From positions 4,712,001-4,776,000 of the forward strand of contig NZ_CP080998.1 of the NCBI RefSeq assembly GCF_019645835.1: a DNA stretch of 64,000 bases, in the 5' to 3' direction. Positions 54,190 to 60,171 of this stretch are shown here, piece after piece; the first letter of the stretch is position 1; the number at the start of each line of letters is the position of its first letter. A program made the position numbers and the translations under genes. The stretch comes from Mycolicibacterium holsaticum DSM 44478 = JCM 12374 (GTDB lineage: Bacteria > Actinomycetota > Actinomycetes > Mycobacteriales > Mycobacteriaceae). The notes under the pieces are model-generated. The model saw only the letters and a program-made list of their open reading frames with translations. It had not been told where the DNA came from and ran no database searches.

Positions 54190-54570
54190 TCAGCCCTCCG
54201 GTGTCACCACGAACACCGGATGGTCGGCCTCGTGAGGCAGCTGCTCGAAATAGCCCTCGACCACCCGACCGGCCTTCTTGCGGTATGCGGTCAAGATCGG
54301 CGGGCGGTCCTGTTCGGGAATCTCACGCGCGACATAGTCCGTCGAGCCGATCTTCACGTTGGGATCGGCCCGCACGTTTTTCACCCACTCGGCTTCGCCG
54401 CGGGTGGAGACCAGGTACTTGGAGCCGTCGACGTCGACGGAGATGATCGGGATCCGCTGGGGCTTCTTGGTGCGCCGCGCGGTGACCGTCAGTGTCTCGC
54501 CCATCCCGGTGACTTTCGCGAGTGGGTTGAAGATCTTGGTGGTGAGCCAGCCAGGCTTGAGATATGCCAT
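54190..54570 (-). CDS. Ddn-type deazaflavin-dependent protein
   Basis: A 126-residue split-barrel protein of the F420-dependent nitroreductase family, with GMGETLTVTARRTKKPQRIPIISVDVDGSKYLVSTRGEAEWVKNVRADPNVKI covering the usual F420-binding region. It is short but complete. ATG 54570 is divergent from a second family member, with 14 bases between starts. The substrate is unknown. Confidence 0.87.
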   Translation of the reverse strand: MAYLKPGWLTTKIFNPLAKVTGMGETLTVTARRTKKPQRIPIISVDVDGSKYLVSTRGEAEWVKNVRADPNVKIGSTDYVAREIPEQDRPPILTAYRKKAGRVVEGYFEQLPHEADHPVFVVTPEG

Positions 54571-54584
54571 GTCTTCGGAGTGTG

Positions 54585-54974
54585 ATGGTTCACGTGCAGC
54601 TCCCGCAACGGCTGGCCCGGTTCAACCGGTACGTCACCAACCCGATCCAGAAGCTGTGGGCGGGCTGGGCGCCGACGTACGGCATCCTCGAGCACGTCGG
54701 GCGCCGGTCCGGCAGGCCCTATCGCACGCCGCTGACCGTGTTTCCCACCGGCGACGGGGTCGCGATCCTGCTCACCTACGGGCCGGACCGGGACTGGCTG
54801 AAGAACATCACCGTCGCGGGCCAAGCCCGGATGAAGCGGTACGGCAGGACGTTCGAGGTGCGCGATCCGCAGGTGCTGCCCAAGGCGCAGGCGGCCACAG
54901 CGGTCACGGGCCGGTGGCGGCCGATCTTCGCGCGGCTGCCGTTCGAGCAGGCGGTGCTGCTGCGCCGGGCCTGA
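54585..54974 (+). CDS. Ddn-type deazaflavin-dependent protein (paralogue)
   Basis: A 129-residue member of the same split-barrel family: NPIQKLWAGWAPTYGILEHVGRRSGRPYRTPLTVFPTGDGVAILLTYGPDRDWLKNITVAGQARMKRYGRTFEV. It shares the RxSGRPYRTPL and DWLKNI positions with the divergent gene but little else, so the pair is an old duplication. ATG 54585 is used; the longer frame from 54564 overlaps the neighbour's start. Its stop lies 18 bases before the first LuxR-region palindrome. Confidence 0.85.
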   Translation: MVHVQLPQRLARFNRYVTNPIQKLWAGWAPTYGILEHVGRRSGRPYRTPLTVFPTGDGVAILLTYGPDRDWLKNITVAGQARMKRYGRTFEVRDPQVLPKAQAATAVTGRWRPIFARLPFEQAVLLRRA

Positions 54975-54992: not shown

Positions 54993-55039
54993 TGGGGTAG
55001 GGCTTTACCCCAGCATCGCCTGGCCTGCGCGGTCAATCT
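54993..55039 (+). promoter_or_regulatory. Promoter 1 of the LuxR-region palindrome regulon
   Basis: Palindrome TGGGGTAG-GGCT-TTACCCCA (54993-55012), then 21 bases, then the -10-like hexamer CAATCT (55034-55039). The ATG at 55046 follows after 6 bases, so a transcript would be leaderless. The motif length and its distance to the hexamer are identical at the two other sites (59469-59515 and 60125-60171). Confidence 0.7.
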
Positions 55040-55045
55040 TGGTTC

Positions 55046-55243
55046 ATGTCGGCCGATCCGCGTCGGGCTGAGTCGCTGACGCAGCTGCCCCTGCCGTACG
55101 CGACCGCGCTGCGGTTGCGCGATGCCGGCGTCGACGATGAGGTGATCGCCGAGCGGGTGGGCGTGGAGGTCGATGCGCTACCGACGTTCATGCGGGTGGC
55201 CGAGGCAAAGCTCGCCGCCGTATCGAAGCAGACACCGCGCTAA
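55046..55243 (+). CDS. Small HTH-type protein upstream of the LuxR regulator
   Basis: A 65-residue protein. The middle part, YATALRLRDAGVDDEVIAERVGVEVDALPTFMRVAEAKLA, looks like a sigma-70 region 4-type helix-turn-helix, with little else present. It lies 28 bases before the LuxR-family regulator on the same strand and directly behind a palindromic promoter, so it is probably cotranscribed with the regulator and may assist or oppose it. The predicted transcript starts at its ATG. Confidence 0.7.
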   Translation: MSADPRRAESLTQLPLPYATALRLRDAGVDDEVIAERVGVEVDALPTFMRVAEAKLAAVSKQTPR

Positions 55244-55271
55244 ACGCGCCGGTAGCGGCTAAAATTTTCCG

Positions 55272-57875
55272 GTGATCCAGGGCTGGCCGCTGGTAGGGCG
55301 GTCAGAGGAACTGGCGGTTATCGCCGAGGCCGTGCGGGCAGCGAATCGCGCCCGCGGGATCGTGCTATCGGGCTCCCCCGGCGTCGGCAAGACGCGGCTG
55401 GCGCGGGAAGCCGTCGCAGAATGTGGGCCGCGCGGCGCCCGCCGGCACTGGATCGCAGGCACCGCGTCGTCGCGCAGTGTCCCGCTGGGTGCCTTCATCG
55501 ACATCGCCAGCGACTTCGGACCGGATCCGTTGCGGCGGGTCCGTGAAGTGATCGACGGGCTGATCGGTGGTGCGCGATACGGCGAAGTCGTCGTCGGTGT
55601 CGACGACGCACACCTGCTCGACGACCTGTCGGCGTTCACCGTGAACCAGCTCGTCACGCGACGACTGGCCACCGTCATCCTGACGATCCGCACGGGTGAG
55701 TCGCCGCCGGACGCGATCACCGCGATCTGGAAAGACCAGCATCTGGAACGCCTTGAACTGCAGCCGCTTTCGCAGCCGGAAATCGCTGACCTGGTGCAGC
55801 ACGTGCTGGCCGGGCCGGTGGACTCGTTCAGCGCACAGCGACTGTGGCAGTACACCCAGGGCAATGCGCTCTATCTGCGTCACCTACTGGACAACGAGGT
55901 GAACGCCGGCCGGATCTCACAGTGCTCCGGTGTGTGGCTGTGGGACGGCCACCCAAAGCTGTCGCCGACGCTGATCGAACTGATCGAGGCGCGGATGACG
56001 AAAGTCCCGGCCTCCGTTCACGTCGTTCTCGATGCGCTCGCGTTGGCAGAGCCACTGGAAACCGAGGTGTTGGAGGCGGTGGCCGATCCCGATGCCGTCG
56101 CGGAGGCCGAATCGCTCGGCCTGATCAGCGTCGACACCAGTGCTCGGCCGGCGTCGGTGCGGCTCGCGCATCCCCTGCTGGGCGAGGTCCGCCACACCGG
56201 CTCGCTACGGTTGCGCCGGCTGAGCGGGCGGATCGCCGCCGAGCTCGCCCGACGGGGCTCGTCAGACCCCCGCGACCTGATCCGGCGTGCGGTGCTGACC
56301 CTCGAATCCGATCTCACCCCGGACCCGGAACTGCTGTTGTCCGCCGCCGCGGCGGCGATGCAGTTGCTGGATCACCGGCTCGCGGAGACGCTCGCCGAGC
56401 GAGCGGTGGCCGTCGGCGGCGGCCCCTGGGCCAAGATCGCGCATGCGATGGCGATCACCTGGCAGGAGCGCGGCGTACGAGCCGAGGAGGTCCTGGCCGA
56501 GCAGGCCGAACAGGCGTCGGGCCTGGAACGGACCCAGATCGCGATCCTGCGCGCCATGAACTTCACGCTGATTCTCGGTGAGGTGACCCGCGCCGAACGC
56601 GAACTCGAGTTGCTGCCCGCCGATGATCGCTCCGCGCAGGCGGTCGCCACCGCACTGCGGGCGTTGATCCAGATGGTGCGCGGGCACTCCAGGACAGCGG
56701 TGGACATGGCGTTCGCCGCCGAGGCGAGCTCGTTGGACAACGACGTCGCGAAGATCTTTCTGGCCTGGGTGTTCGTCGCCGGCCTCGGCGATCTCGGGCG
56801 GATCGACGAGATCGAACCCGCGGCGAAGCGGGGCTATGCGATCGCCGACAAGTCGCCGGAGTCCGGGCACCTGCTGCGTCGGTTGGCACTTCAGGAGACG
56901 CACGGCTACCGGCTCGGCGGCATGCTGGAGCAATCGGACGAAGTCATCGCCCGGATCAGGCGCGACACGCTCGACGTCCCGTTCGAGGAATCGTGGCACC
57001 GCGTGATGGTCGGCCTGTCGGCGATGACCCGGGGTGCGCTGCAGGACGCGCGACGGTCGCTGCGGGACGCACTTGCCTATCTCGGCCCCGGCGATAGCGG
57101 ACGCATGGTGAAGACCTTCGGCCGGTTGTGGCTGACGACGGTGACCGCGATGGCCGGATCGGCAACCGAGGCACGTTGCGAGCTCGAAGCCATCGAGTGG
57201 TGGGCCCGTGACCCCGATGCCTGCATGTTCGACCCGTACCGGTCGCTGGCGCAGGCTTGGGTGTGCGCATCTGAAGGCGCTGTGTCGCAGTCGATTTCGA
57301 TCATGCGCGATGCCGCGCAGCGAGAACGCGCGCTCGACCGGCCGGCCTGGGAAGTGGTCCTGCTGCAGACGGCGACACAGTTCGGCGACCACACCACCGC
57401 TGCCAGGTCGGCCGAGCTGGCCGGTCAGGTGCAGGGGCCTCGGGCGCCCACCGCCGCGGCGCACGCCGCCGCGCTCGCCGCAGGCGACGGGGACGCACTG
57501 CTCGACGCGTCGCATCGCTACGAGACTTTCGGCGATCGGCTGGCCGCTGCTGACGCCGCCGCCCACGCCGTCGTCGCATATCAGCACGCCCGGTTGCGCG
57601 GAGCGGCACTGACCGCGTCTGCCATCGCCGGACGGCTCGCCGACGAATGCCAGGGGGCCCAGACCCCTGCGCTGCGCGCCCTGAGCATGCCGCAGCCGTT
57701 CACGACCCGTCAGCGTGAGATCATTTCGCTTGCTGCACAAGGTTTGTCGAACAAGGAGATCGCCGAACGACTGACCATGTCGATCCGTTCGATCGAGGGC
57801 CATCTGTTCCGCGCCTCGCAACGCGTCGGCGCCAACAGCCGCGATCAGCTCATCTCACTGCTGCACGGGTCGTGA
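55272..57875 (+). CDS. Large ATP-binding LuxR-family (LAL) regulator
   Basis: An 867-residue LAL regulator. The NTPase has Walker A GSPGVGKT (residues 34-41) and Walker B VVVGVDDAHLL (about 108-118); a long helical TPR-like middle follows; the C-terminal GerE/LuxR HTH reads FTTRQREIISLAAQGLSNKEIAERLTMSIRSIEGHLFRASQ (about 814-854). Such regulators (MalT-like) bind a signal and ATP, oligomerise, and activate promoters from inverted or repeated sites. GTG 55272 is the first codon of homology (IQGWPLVGRSEEL). The palindromes nearby are its probable targets. Confidence 0.9.
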   Translation: MIQGWPLVGRSEELAVIAEAVRAANRARGIVLSGSPGVGKTRLAREAVAECGPRGARRHWIAGTASSRSVPLGAFIDIASDFGPDPLRRVREVIDGLIGGARYGEVVVGVDDAHLLDDLSAFTVNQLVTRRLATVILTIRTGESPPDAITAIWKDQHLERLELQPLSQPEIADLVQHVLAGPVDSFSAQRLWQYTQGNALYLRHLLDNEVNAGRISQCSGVWLWDGHPKLSPTLIELIEARMTKVPASVHVVLDALALAEPLETEVLEAVADPDAVAEAESLGLISVDTSARPASVRLAHPLLGEVRHTGSLRLRRLSGRIAAELARRGSSDPRDLIRRAVLTLESDLTPDPELLLSAAAAAMQLLDHRLAETLAERAVAVGGGPWAKIAHAMAITWQERGVRAEEVLAEQAEQASGLERTQIAILRAMNFTLILGEVTRAERELELLPADDRSAQAVATALRALIQMVRGHSRTAVDMAFAAEASSLDNDVAKIFLAWVFVAGLGDLGRIDEIEPAAKRGYAIADKSPESGHLLRRLALQETHGYRLGGMLEQSDEVIARIRRDTLDVPFEESWHRVMVGLSAMTRGALQDARRSLRDALAYLGPGDSGRMVKTFGRLWLTTVTAMAGSATEARCELEAIEWWARDPDACMFDPYRSLAQAWVCASEGAVSQSISIMRDAAQRERALDRPAWEVVLLQTATQFGDHTTAARSAELAGQVQGPRAPTAAAHAAALAAGDGDALLDASHRYETFGDRLAAADAAAHAVVAYQHARLRGAALTASAIAGRLADECQGAQTPALRALSMPQPFTTRQREIISLAAQGLSNKEIAERLTMSIRSIEGHLFRASQRVGANSRDQLISLLHGS

Positions 57876-57892
57876 CGCGTAACCGATCGGCG

Positions 57893-59440
57893 TCAGCCGG
57901 GGTTGCCGGCGCTTCCGTTTGCCCCGTCGCTGCCGCCGGCGCCGGCACCGCCGTCAGCGCCGTCCGTGCCTGAGCCCTGACCACCGGCGCCTCCGGCGCC
58001 GCCCAGCCCACCGACACCTGGCGCACCCGCCGGACCGCCTGTACCGCCGGAACCTGGGGTCCCGCCACTTCCGAGAGTGACATCGGTGGTCGGGTCCGCG
58101 GGGAATATCACGCCGCCGCCGTGGCCGCCGTTCCCGCCGTTCCCACCGTCGCCGCCGTCGCCGCCGTCGCCGCCCGTACCGCCGTTACCGCCGGTGCCGC
58201 CGGTTCCGAAGAATCCGCCCTTGCCACCATTGCCGCCTGCGCCGCCGTTCTGACCGGCACCGCCGGGGGCACCGTCACCGCCGTCGCCGCCGTCACCGCC
58301 GCTGCCGGAGACCAGGGTCACGCCATTGCCCTGAGTGATCGCATAGCCGCCGTTTCCGCCGTCGCCACCGTCAGCACCCGTTCCGCCGTCACCGCCGTCG
58401 CCACCGTCGCCGCCGGTCGCGTCACTGCCCAGGCTGGTCGCATCACCGCCGGCACCGCCGTTTCCGCCCGGCGCACCGTAACCTCCGGCGCCGCCGTCGC
58501 CGCCGCCGGGCGCCACTGCGGGATCGGGAATCTCGACATCGTCCCCGCCGTTGCCGCCGTTCCCGCCGGCCACACCGGGGCCGCCGGCGCTGCCAGGACC
58601 TCCGGGTGAAGCGGTGCCGAACACGAAATCGTCATCGCCGTCCGCACCGTCGGGGGCGCGGCTGACCCCGTCCCACACGAGGTCACCGTCGAGCCCCGCC
58701 AGCCCGGCCCCGCCGTCGCCGCCTGCACCGCCGTTGCCGAACAGCAGCGCACCGTCGCCGCCGTCACCGCCGTTCCCGCCGGGTCCGCCGTCGCCTCCGG
58801 CGCCGCCGTTGCCGAAGAGCAACCCGGCGCGGCCACCGGGACCGCCCGCCTGGCCGATCAAGACGCCATCGCCGCCTTTTCCGCCGTTACCCCATAACAG
58901 GCCGCCGTCGCCGCCGGGACAACCGGCGCACGTGGCGTCGAGGCCGTTACCGATCAGCAGACCGCCCGGGCCGATCAGGTACACCGCGCCACCGAACGCT
59001 GTGGGAGGCAACGATTGGCTGTAGGGCACCGACAACGCCGACGGTCCGTTGTTGCCGCCTGAACCTCCCTGCGGTGTCACGAAAACCAGCGGTGCGTAGA
59101 AGCTGGGGCCTGTCGAGGTCGCCGAATGGGCGCTGGCCGCGAAGTGTTCGACAGCGGTGCTCAACGCAGCGGCGCTGCTTCCCGCGGCTTTGACCGTCGA
59201 GGTCTGGTCGGTGGACGGAAGAAATCCGGCCACCCCCAATGGATTCCCCGACTGCGACGACGTCAACGCCACCGGCGGGGGCCCCGAGGCGGGCGACGTG
59301 CCGGTGGACTCGGCGGGCGTCGACGACGAGAGTTCCTGGGCCGCAACGCTTATACCGCCCGCCACGAGCAGGCCCGCCGCCATACCGGCCGCGATCTTGG
59401 TGTTGATGTCAGCGGTCGACGTTGAATTGCGTTTCGACAT
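57893..59440 (-). CDS. Exported PGRS-like glycine-rich protein lacking a PE domain
   Basis: A 515-residue protein with a hydrophobic signal segment (residues 14-34, KIAAGMAAGLLVAGGISVAA) and no lipobox or PE domain. Residues 45-130 are low-complexity and Ser/Thr/Pro-rich; from about 155 to the end it is a run of GGxGG/GNGGxGG tripeptide-type repeats, as in mycobacterial PGRS domains. GGAGG 6 bases before ATG 59440 fixes the start. It has its own palindromic promoter, which suggests regulation by the LuxR-family protein. Its role is probably on the cell surface; no function is known. Confidence 0.85.
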   Translation of the reverse strand: MSKRNSTSTADINTKIAAGMAAGLLVAGGISVAAQELSSSTPAESTGTSPASGPPPVALTSSQSGNPLGVAGFLPSTDQTSTVKAAGSSAAALSTAVEHFAASAHSATSTGPSFYAPLVFVTPQGGSGGNNGPSALSVPYSQSLPPTAFGGAVYLIGPGGLLIGNGLDATCAGCPGGDGGLLWGNGGKGGDGVLIGQAGGPGGRAGLLFGNGGAGGDGGPGGNGGDGGDGALLFGNGGAGGDGGAGLAGLDGDLVWDGVSRAPDGADGDDDFVFGTASPGGPGSAGGPGVAGGNGGNGGDDVEIPDPAVAPGGGDGGAGGYGAPGGNGGAGGDATSLGSDATGGDGGDGGDGGTGADGGDGGNGGYAITQGNGVTLVSGSGGDGGDGGDGAPGGAGQNGGAGGNGGKGGFFGTGGTGGNGGTGGDGGDGGDGGNGGNGGHGGGVIFPADPTTDVTLGSGGTPGSGGTGGPAGAPGVGGLGGAGGAGGQGSGTDGADGGAGAGGSDGANGSAGNPG

Positions 59441-59468
59441 GTCGTCCTCCATCCGCGCCTGTATCGGT

Positions 59469-59515
59469 AACGTAAGGCCGGTGCAGCCCAGTCGATGGGG
59501 TAGTCCACTACCCCA
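59469..59515 (-). promoter_or_regulatory. Promoter 2 of the LuxR-region palindrome regulon (PGRS gene)
   Basis: Palindrome TGGGGTAG-TCCA-CTACCCCA read on the plus strand at 59496-59515, extending to 24 bases as an 11-2-11 inverted repeat (59494-59517). On the minus strand, 21 bases later, lies the -10-like TACGTT (59469-59474), followed by a short leader with a GGAGG ribosome site and the PGRS ATG at 59440. Confidence 0.75.
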
Positions 59516-59601
59516 TCTGGCTATATTCCTGGCGCACAACGGATATCGACAACCGGCGGCGCCCAGGATGGGACACCGCCGGTCGCGTTGAAGGTGTTTC
59601 G

Positions 59602-60087
59602 CTACGGGCAGGTCACCGAGATCTGGAAGGGTTTGTTGACGGGCTGCATGGGATTGGCCATGTCGACGCCTGTGGCGGTGCCGGAGATCCTATAGACGTC
59701 ACCGTCCTTTTCGACCTTCGCCTCACCCTGACCGGTGCCGCTCTGGAAGCCCAGCGTCACCCCGTTGACGTTGCCGAGACCCACCGACTGCACGGTCGAA
59801 CCGTCTTCGCTCAGCACGGCGCCGATGCCGGTCATCGCGTCACCGATGGCGATGTTCATGTTTCCGCCCATGGCGCTGCACACCACGGTGCCCTCGACGT
59901 TCTGATCCTGACCGTCGATCGAAACCTTGGTGGCAGCACCGCTGGATCCAGCCGGTGCGGCGCTGGCGGTGCCCGGGTCGGCGGCCGACGTGGCGGGATC
60001 CTCGGACCTGTCACCTGACGAGCAACCGGACAAACCAGCGATGACGACCGCGACGCCGCCCGCCGCGACCAGTAATCGACGCTTCAC
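59602..60087 (-). CDS. LpqH-family lipoprotein (19 kDa antigen type)
   Basis: A 161-residue lipoprotein of the LpqH/19 kDa family. The lipobox is LSGC (Cys22); a Ser/Ala/Pro-rich linker (residues 23-50) follows; the domain contains [31 protein letters not shown] and the last FQISVTCP, with two conserved cysteines that form the family disulfide. GTG 60087 has AAGGGAG 8 bases upstream; the frame above it is non-homologous. It is preceded by the third palindromic promoter. LpqH proteins are abundant surface lipoproteins of unclear function. Confidence 0.9.
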
Positions 60088-60124
60088 GACTGTGCTCCCT
60101 TCATTGGTCTGACGGTCAGGGGGC

Positions 60125-60171
60125 AACGTATTTCGCGGGGTGCCGAGCGGCTGGGGTAGTGAACTACCCCA
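60125..60171 (-). promoter_or_regulatory. Promoter 3 of the LuxR-region palindrome regulon (LpqH-like gene)
   Basis: Palindrome TGGGGTAG-TGAA-CTACCCCA at 60152-60171 (plus strand), then on the minus strand 21 bases and TACGTT (60125-60130), the same hexamer as at the PGRS promoter. The lipoprotein GTG at 60087 is 37 bases further. The site also lies 29 bases before the P450 stop at 60201 in the tail-to-head gap. Confidence 0.75.

Follow-up and report, generated by a model that had tools for sequence, protein, structure and literature searches.

The 64,000-nucleotide stretch of the Mycolicibacterium holsaticum DSM 44478 = JCM 12374 genome analysed here (contig NZ_CP080998.1, positions 4,712,001 to 4,776,000; hereafter the window) carries a 20-bp dyad, TGGGGTA-N6-TACCCCA, in front of two genes that encode a 65-residue acidic protein (hereafter SMALL) and a large ATP-binding regulator of the LuxR family (LAL). 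We think it probable that this dyad is the operator of the LAL at 55272, which would use it for class II activation of its own operon and of three other targets, with SMALL serving as a feedback modulator. Comparison between genomes, at the level of sequence, establishes the dyad, its spacing, its co-occurrence with one LAL clade, its place at LAL or SMALL promoters and the conservation of SMALL.

The whole window was scanned on both strands for TGGGGTAG-N4-YTACCCCA with up to three mismatches allowed. Matches were found at 54993, 59496 and 60152 only, each on both strands, making six matches where 100 shuffles gave 0.33 on average and 4 at most. An earlier interpretation, made from the letters of the window without database searches (the sequence-only reading), had placed the palindrome at just these three sites and a hexamer 21 bases from each; both statements are borne out, the hexamers CAATCT, TACGTT and TACGTT lying exactly 21 bases from the first, second and third dyads, respectively. 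All three dyads contain the core GTA-N6-TAC. That reading's further description as a self-contained regulon of three promoters does not hold, since the complete genome (5.62 Mb) has four exact copies of TGGGGTA-N6-TACCCCA and none of the reversed control, so that there are at least four sites. The fourth (G000:C1:2459908-2459927) is 2.3 Mb away from the window and is followed, after 21 bases, by AATACT and then by open reading frames (ORFs) of 160 and 1660 residues, the longer one with a DUF6603 domain. A DUF6603-type ORF pair with a dyad is also present in another genome (G068, locus L110).

The spacing was examined at 60 unique TGRGGTA-N6-TACCYCA sites, many of them sharing ancestry, in stretches fetched from the M. 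holsaticum genome and from related ones. At offset 21, TANNNT was found in 28 of 120 directions, compared with 0.19 on average at the offsets outside 20-22, and the looser pattern [CT]ANNN[TC] occurred at offset 21 at 41 of the 60 sites and at 1-16 sites for each of the other 44 offsets. The excess of TANNNT at offset 21 over the other offsets means that the spacing is not due to chance. If transcription begins at the start codon, the centre of the dyad is at -43.5. In 25 chosen genomes, 63 sites of the TGRGGTA-N6-TACCYCA type were counted against a single reversed-control match, and four of the 25 have no site. Genomes with sites have 1-7 of them, which vary in their six inner bases and in their flanks.

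These counts and distances bear on two explanations that require no regulator. That the palindromes arose by chance, or belong to a repeat element spread by copying, has a next to negligible probability: the small number of sites, and the fact that the reversed control matches once in some genomes of the genus (see below), would suit chance, but not the four exact copies against none in this genome or the 63 against one in the chosen set, and the few sites per genome with their variable centres and flanks do not resemble a repeat. Terminator or attenuator hairpins at gene ends are also very improbable. Two of the dyads are indeed close to gene ends, dyad 1 being 18 bases past the one at 54974 and dyad 3 being 29 bases from that of a P450 gene; however, none of the window dyads is followed by a T run in the reading direction of the preceding gene (TTTT follows dyad 3 on the other strand), some sites fall between divergent genes, and a hairpin would not explain the constant 21 bases to the -10-like hexamers or the constant distance to SMALL start codons described next. 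The terminator and repeat-element explanations were rejected on spacing and counts.

In a first set of 60 SMALL genes, 55 have an in-frame start codon that follows the end of a GTA-N6-TAC dyad at a distance of 32-34 bases. Among control ORFs of the same loci (at least 120 codons, first ATG or GTG) 2 of 3526 obey this rule, and a control that allows any in-frame start near the first, as was done for SMALL, gave 3 of 3728, two of the three being TGRGGTA/TGGGGTA sites. The 54 unique spacers have A or T at -11 in 53 cases and T at -7 in 36 (relative to the start codon), a pattern that looks as it should for the -10 element of a leaderless transcript. The leaderless start proposed earlier for the ATG at 55046 gains support from the distance kept in 55 of 60 family members. 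Within the first set, 51 genes lie within 1 kb of a LAL on the same strand, either upstream or downstream of it; for one of these 51, in G208, the LAL is a remnant.

For a second set of 40 further SMALL loci, predictions were written before the sequences were fetched, and they were only partly right. A dyad at 32-34 bases was found in 14 of the 40, and a same-strand LAL within 1 kb of SMALL in 29. When sorted by score, 10 of 11 genes at 77 bits or more have the dyad at this distance, compared with 4 of 29 below, the 77-bit split having been chosen after the result was seen. The 32-34-base rule is thus a property of the nearer SMALL subfamily. Genes below 77 bits (L195, L197, L198, L207, L208 and similar loci) form a distant subfamily upstream of LALs with RA[ST]VKAG helices and are mostly without the dyad.

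Co-occurrence of dyad and regulator was surveyed in 396 genomes of the genus, a LAL being counted as close at 54% or more identity to the window LAL. The exact dyad is present in 19 genomes (46 sites in all) and a close LAL in 20, seven further genomes with best matches of 43-47% not being counted; 15 genomes have both (Fisher 1e-19, a statistic that ignores ancestry). The reversed control gave 14 matches, one each in 14 other genomes. LAL-type regulators as such are common in mycobacteria, with a match in 129 of 148 genomes (E 1e-20). Among the named genomes recovered by a protein search (seven loci) are those of Mycolicibacterium elephantis (92%), M. setense (83%), M. houstonense (81%) and Mycobacterium hubeiense (78%), and in related genomes sites are located at the LAL or SMALL promoter. 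The co-occurrence and these promoter sites support the earlier suggestion that the LAL is the likely reader of the dyad and acts on its own SMALL-LAL operon. Two fragments that comprise only the C-terminal helix-turn-helix (HTH) of a LAL adjoin a dyad (L083 10827-11163 in G013; L096 4352-4568 in G187), as if a promoter and an HTH were left over from LAL copies.

Several observations, in this paragraph and the next, weigh against the LAL as reader. The exact dyad occurs without a close LAL in four genomes, G114, G141, G208 and G277. G114 still fits the LAL as reader, since its dyad lies 33 bases before SMALL and beside a LAL of 41-42%. In G141, G208 and G277, exact dyads persist although an intact LAL of the window clade is missing. 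The sequence-only reading had counted a motif conserved in genomes lacking the regulator as evidence against itself, and these three genomes provide such evidence in part. Their dyads may be leftovers or may be read by something else; in G208 (L099 8169-10349) two intact dyads and SMALL stand beside a LAL remnant of residues 1-272. Conversely, five genomes have a close LAL and lack the exact motif (G146, G332, G206, G204 and G123). G206 and G204 have the one-letter variant TGAGGTA...TACCCCA and G146 has a two-mismatch site adjoining its LAL. G332 (LAL relative 62%) and G123 (54%) have no TGRGGTA-N6-TACCYCA site, and within 600 bases upstream of the G332 LAL the nearest site has at least five mismatches. 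G231 (M. houstonense), one of the 15 shared genomes, has its LAL split into two pieces in different frames. The locus (L089 6157-9952) shows a tandem duplication that takes in SMALL, the initial third of the LAL and two dyads, which are identical in both copies, and the two-piece LAL is the longer of the duplicated copies.

The recognition helix of the LAL and the flanks of the dyad were compared in 42 distinct SMALL-linked modules, those without a readable neighbouring helix being left out; the flanks differ with the helix, which speaks for the LAL. At half-site position 4, helices ending in RA[SC]QR go with G in 23 halves and A in 1 (24 halves), and other helices, mostly RAMxK, with A in 50, G in 8 and C in 2 (60 halves); at position 2 the former go with G in 22 and C in 2, and the latter with C in 37, T in 17, A in 3 and G in 3. 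As independent evidence this link is weak, because most of it goes back to a single split among the LALs: on a tree of 64 of them, 3 changes, close to the minimum, account for the merged QR label (5 for the RASQ label alone). The LAL of L098 sits on a long branch of this tree. A simple letter code at position 3 was rejected: Gly went with G in 69 of 70 halves, Ala gave 3 A and 3 G, and the position follows the helix only partly, the single new Ala case having failed. Helix type was likewise rejected as a predictor of the motif: of 18 LALs picked from genomes that lack the exact dyad, 15 have RACQR-type helices. This type is found in G141, G277 and G208 (helix SVRTVEGHLFRACQR) as well as in G087, G109 and a second LAL of the M. 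holsaticum genome (L235), and a QR-type helix is also found in G114; since the motif-less picks share it so widely, the QR-type helices of G114, G141 and G277 no longer provide strong support. QR-type LAL copies in L081 (8900), L092 and L148 had no dyad within 1.5 kb by our filter. LALs of a common clade that is 37-40% identical to the window LAL have RACQR-type helices in most of the genomes examined (L235, L237-L240, L242-L247, L249-L253).

The same observations frame the possibility that another protein reads the dyad, for example the common LAL type with the RACQR helix (38-40% relative to the window LAL). This type is present in the M. holsaticum genome and in the three genomes that keep dyads without an intact close LAL, but its presence does not predict the motif, as the 15 of 18 picks indicate, and a GTA-N6-TAC dyad was not found in short stretches around its copies in G141, G277, G087 and G109. 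We regard such a reader as quite improbable.

By its conservation across genomes, SMALL is a widespread putative partner family that the sequence-only reading had overlooked. It is found in 85 of the 396 genomes (E 1e-4), mostly beside a LAL and with conserved sequence, and 2243 database proteins match it at E 1e-3 among 8000 scored candidates. Its AlphaFold model has a pLDDT of 86, and fold comparison aligns this model with sigma region 4 domains. Fourteen of 15 members did not reach the sigma region 4 Pfam family at E 0.5, and the window SMALL matched no NCBIfam family at E 0.1. SMALL differs from sigma factors in being acidic and in having no region 2, its chain being just 65 residues long and its model matching region 4. 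The mean charge is -3.1, with about -2.5 in the core as against +2.8 for the LAL HTH, and a profile-profile comparison of SMALL with the LAL HTH is weak (14% probability). Beyond the genus, in other families of the order, SMALL relatives with upstream GTA-N6-TAC dyads occur in L230 (G522) and L233 (G399); the usual distance (34 bases) is kept in G399 and not in G522. In modules where the LAL precedes SMALL (L114, L131, L137, L138, L139), a second conserved dyad, GTCGTTA-N7-TAACGAC, lies about 60 bases upstream of the LAL, and these LALs may answer to a second regulator.

SMALL itself could be the reader of the dyad, the LAL being merely a neighbour or a signal input. The fixed place of the dyad before SMALL in 55 of 60 cases and the modelled HTH fold would fit, as would G208, which retains SMALL and its dyads with a broken LAL. 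Against this, no SMALL hit was obtained in G206, G223 or G277, all outside the 85 genomes, yet G223 and G277 keep exact dyads and G206 the one-letter variant; G146 is a further such case in weaker form. The persistence of dyads and LAL without a SMALL hit in G206 and G223 (more weakly in G146) means that SMALL is not needed to keep the dyad. Its acidity and the mostly dyad-less low-scoring subfamily (4 of 29) also argue against DNA reading by SMALL. Since dyads remain where no SMALL hit was obtained, we reject SMALL as the reader, a role that we consider unlikely.

The proteins encoded downstream of window-type sites in related genomes comprise LpqH-like lipoproteins, PGRS-like proteins, a DUF3060 protein, a beta-propeller protein and a cutinase; further targets are small proteins whose N termini resemble signal sequences, and the DUF6603 operon. 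Of ten targets submitted to Pfam, three had no match at E 0.01 and two had matches below the curated cut-off only. The targets look mostly exported, as judged by eye from their N termini and from some of the Pfam matches, with no trained predictor. Possible non-exported exceptions are the P450 encoded divergently from the site in G114, a protein of G277 and G366 that has CxxC pairs, and a 169-residue protein without a family. A filter over 80 loci around other SMALL genes returned only six candidates for further dyad targets, few of them convincing.

The features of the window are listed in Table 1. LALs are large proteins of about 850-1000 residues, a range that the window LAL fits; it has the expected domains at both ends, AAA_16 (PF13191) scoring 36.8 bits (cut-off 32.6) and GerE (PF00196) 42.2 bits (cut-off 23.5). 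The stop codon of SMALL lies 28 bases ahead of the LAL start. On the other side of dyad 1 are two divergent genes resembling F420H2-dependent quinone reductases (54190-54570 on the minus strand and 54564-54974 on the plus strand). Their first start codons overlap, and the true start of the plus-strand gene may be further downstream.

Table 1. Dyads, -10-like hexamers and genes of the window, with positions counted from its first base.
Feature	Position	Strand	Basis or context
Dyad 1 (TGGGGTAGGGCTTTACCCCA)	54993..55012	.	Predicted promoter of the SMALL-LAL operon; 33 bases between dyad end and ATG 55046
CAATCT, -10-like hexamer	55034..55039	+	21 bases after dyad 1; -10 position conserved in 54 unique SMALL spacers
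SMALL, 65-residue acidic protein, modelled sigma-region-4-like fold, predicted leaderless	55046..55243	+	Conservation across many species; AlphaFold; fold comparison
LAL regulator, 867 residues	55272..57875	+	N-terminal AAA_16 ATPase and C-terminal GerE/LuxR HTH (Pfam)
GerE HTH of the LAL, residues 809-863, recognition helix SIRSIEGHLFRASQRVG	57696..57860	+	Pfam
PGRS-like Gly-rich protein, 519 residues from ATG 59452	57893..59452	-	Pfam PGRS, 40.4 bits; hydrophobic N-terminal stretch
TACGTT, -10-like hexamer	59469..59474	-	21 bases after dyad 2
Dyad 2 (TGGGGTAGTCCACTACCCCA on +)	59496..59515	.	Predicted promoter of the PGRS-like gene
LpqH-like (19 kDa antigen family) lipoprotein, 161 residues	59602..60087	-	Pfam Myco_19_kDa (PF05481), 117.4 bits, cut-off 23
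TACGTT, -10-like hexamer	60125..60130	-	21 bases after dyad 3
Dyad 3 (TGGGGTAGTGAACTACCCCA on +)	60152..60171	.	Predicted promoter of the lipoprotein gene

The lux box of Vibrio fischeri, the site of LuxR-type activators, is a 20-bp dyad with a GTA-N6-TAC core located around -42/-43. The mycobacterial dyad has the same length and core and a predicted place near -43.5. It differs in its flanks, TGGG/CCCA or TCGA/TCGC here compared with ACCT/AGGT in the lux box, in its presumed reader, a multidomain ATPase instead of a sensor of acyl-homoserine lactones (AHL), and in being coupled to a small protein with a modelled sigma-4-like fold. The window LAL is built like other actinobacterial LALs such as AbsR2, with a MalT-like arrangement of AAA_16 at the N end and a GerE HTH at the C end. 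AbsR2 is its best NCBIfam match at 230.5 bits, far below the cut-off of 850 for NF050132. Of the two target products in the window, the lipoprotein resembles LpqH, and the PGRS-like protein resembles PE_PGRS-type proteins in its Pfam PGRS match and differs from them in its hydrophobic N-terminal stretch, Pfam finding PGRS only and no PE domain.

The classic arrangement for LuxR-type activators is a single site placed upstream of the -10 element at a constant spacing, and the dyad is arranged in this way. This argues against the alternative that the LAL binds the dyad and represses, or changes sign in response to ATP or a ligand. Repressors, too, can occupy sites that overlap the -35 region, and the sequence gives no sign, but a lone site at constant spacing is the classic place of an activator. 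Further, IniR (Rv0339c / MMAR_0612), a similarly built mycobacterial regulator, activates iniBAC on envelope stress and trehalose, according to PMC5760070. Repression is accordingly an alternative that we do not expect to hold. IniR resembles the window LAL in combining a large ATPase with a LuxR-like HTH and, in the same article, governs very few envelope-related genes. The window LAL differs from it in being paired with a small protein, in probably acting on its own promoter and in having putative PGRS-like and LpqH-like targets, and it scores 28.7 bits against the cut-off of 750 for NCBIfam NF038181, with the best stretch in the HTH. With both scores far below their cut-offs, membership of the window LAL in the IniR and AbsR2 families was rejected.

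The main text of PMC5760070 contains no occurrence of "palindrom", "inverted repeat" or "binding site", and the accessible text of a survey of actinobacterial LuxR proteins (PMC3466318) none of "lux box", "binding site" or "palindrom". In the open-access literature, including the accessible parts of these two articles and of PMC4452763, no description was found of the dyad, of its LAL clade or of SMALL, nor was one found in open-access text of an operator of any mycobacterial LAL. A literature search with the letters of the motif returned no mycobacterial title among the matches listed.

From this evidence we infer binding of the dyad by the LAL, activation and a role for SMALL, in the following way. 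Two copies of the LuxR-type HTH would read TGGGGTA...TACCCCA as a lux-box-like dyad that has the GTA-N6-TAC core. With its centre about 43.5 bases ahead of the start of transcription, the dyad would overlap the -35 region, and the LAL bound there would most likely act as a class II activator. It would control its own leaderless operon, SMALL followed by LAL, together with the PGRS-like protein, the LpqH-like lipoprotein and the distant operon with the DUF6603 protein. SMALL, which has the best-conserved promoter of the set, would probably modulate the LAL, or the contact of the LAL with RNA polymerase, by feedback. The module would be one clade of genus-wide LAL-SMALL pairs that have the dyad core in common and differ in its flanks.

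A module of a regulator and a tiny partner, so far unnamed, thus appears to be widespread in mycobacteria, and the dyad is probably the docking site of the adjoining LAL. The dyad and its fixed promoter distance offer a rule by which targets can be predicted from sequence; they tie an orphan LAL clade to surface lipoproteins, PGRS-like proteins and a cutinase, and expose an unannotated family of 65-residue partners. One core with clade-specific flanks would be a natural series for studying how LuxR-type regulators choose their DNA. A bolder proposal, which we hold as tentative and on balance doubtful, is that mycobacteria possess a large undescribed family of parallel modules, each consisting of a LAL activator, a free-standing and leaderless sigma-4-like SMALL and a lux-box-like dyad whose flanks change with the LAL between clades, in which SMALL as a mimic of sigma region 4 participates in or shuts off the contact between LAL and RNA polymerase. 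If this is true, the parallel LAL-SMALL-dyad modules would be self-limited switches for surface proteins.

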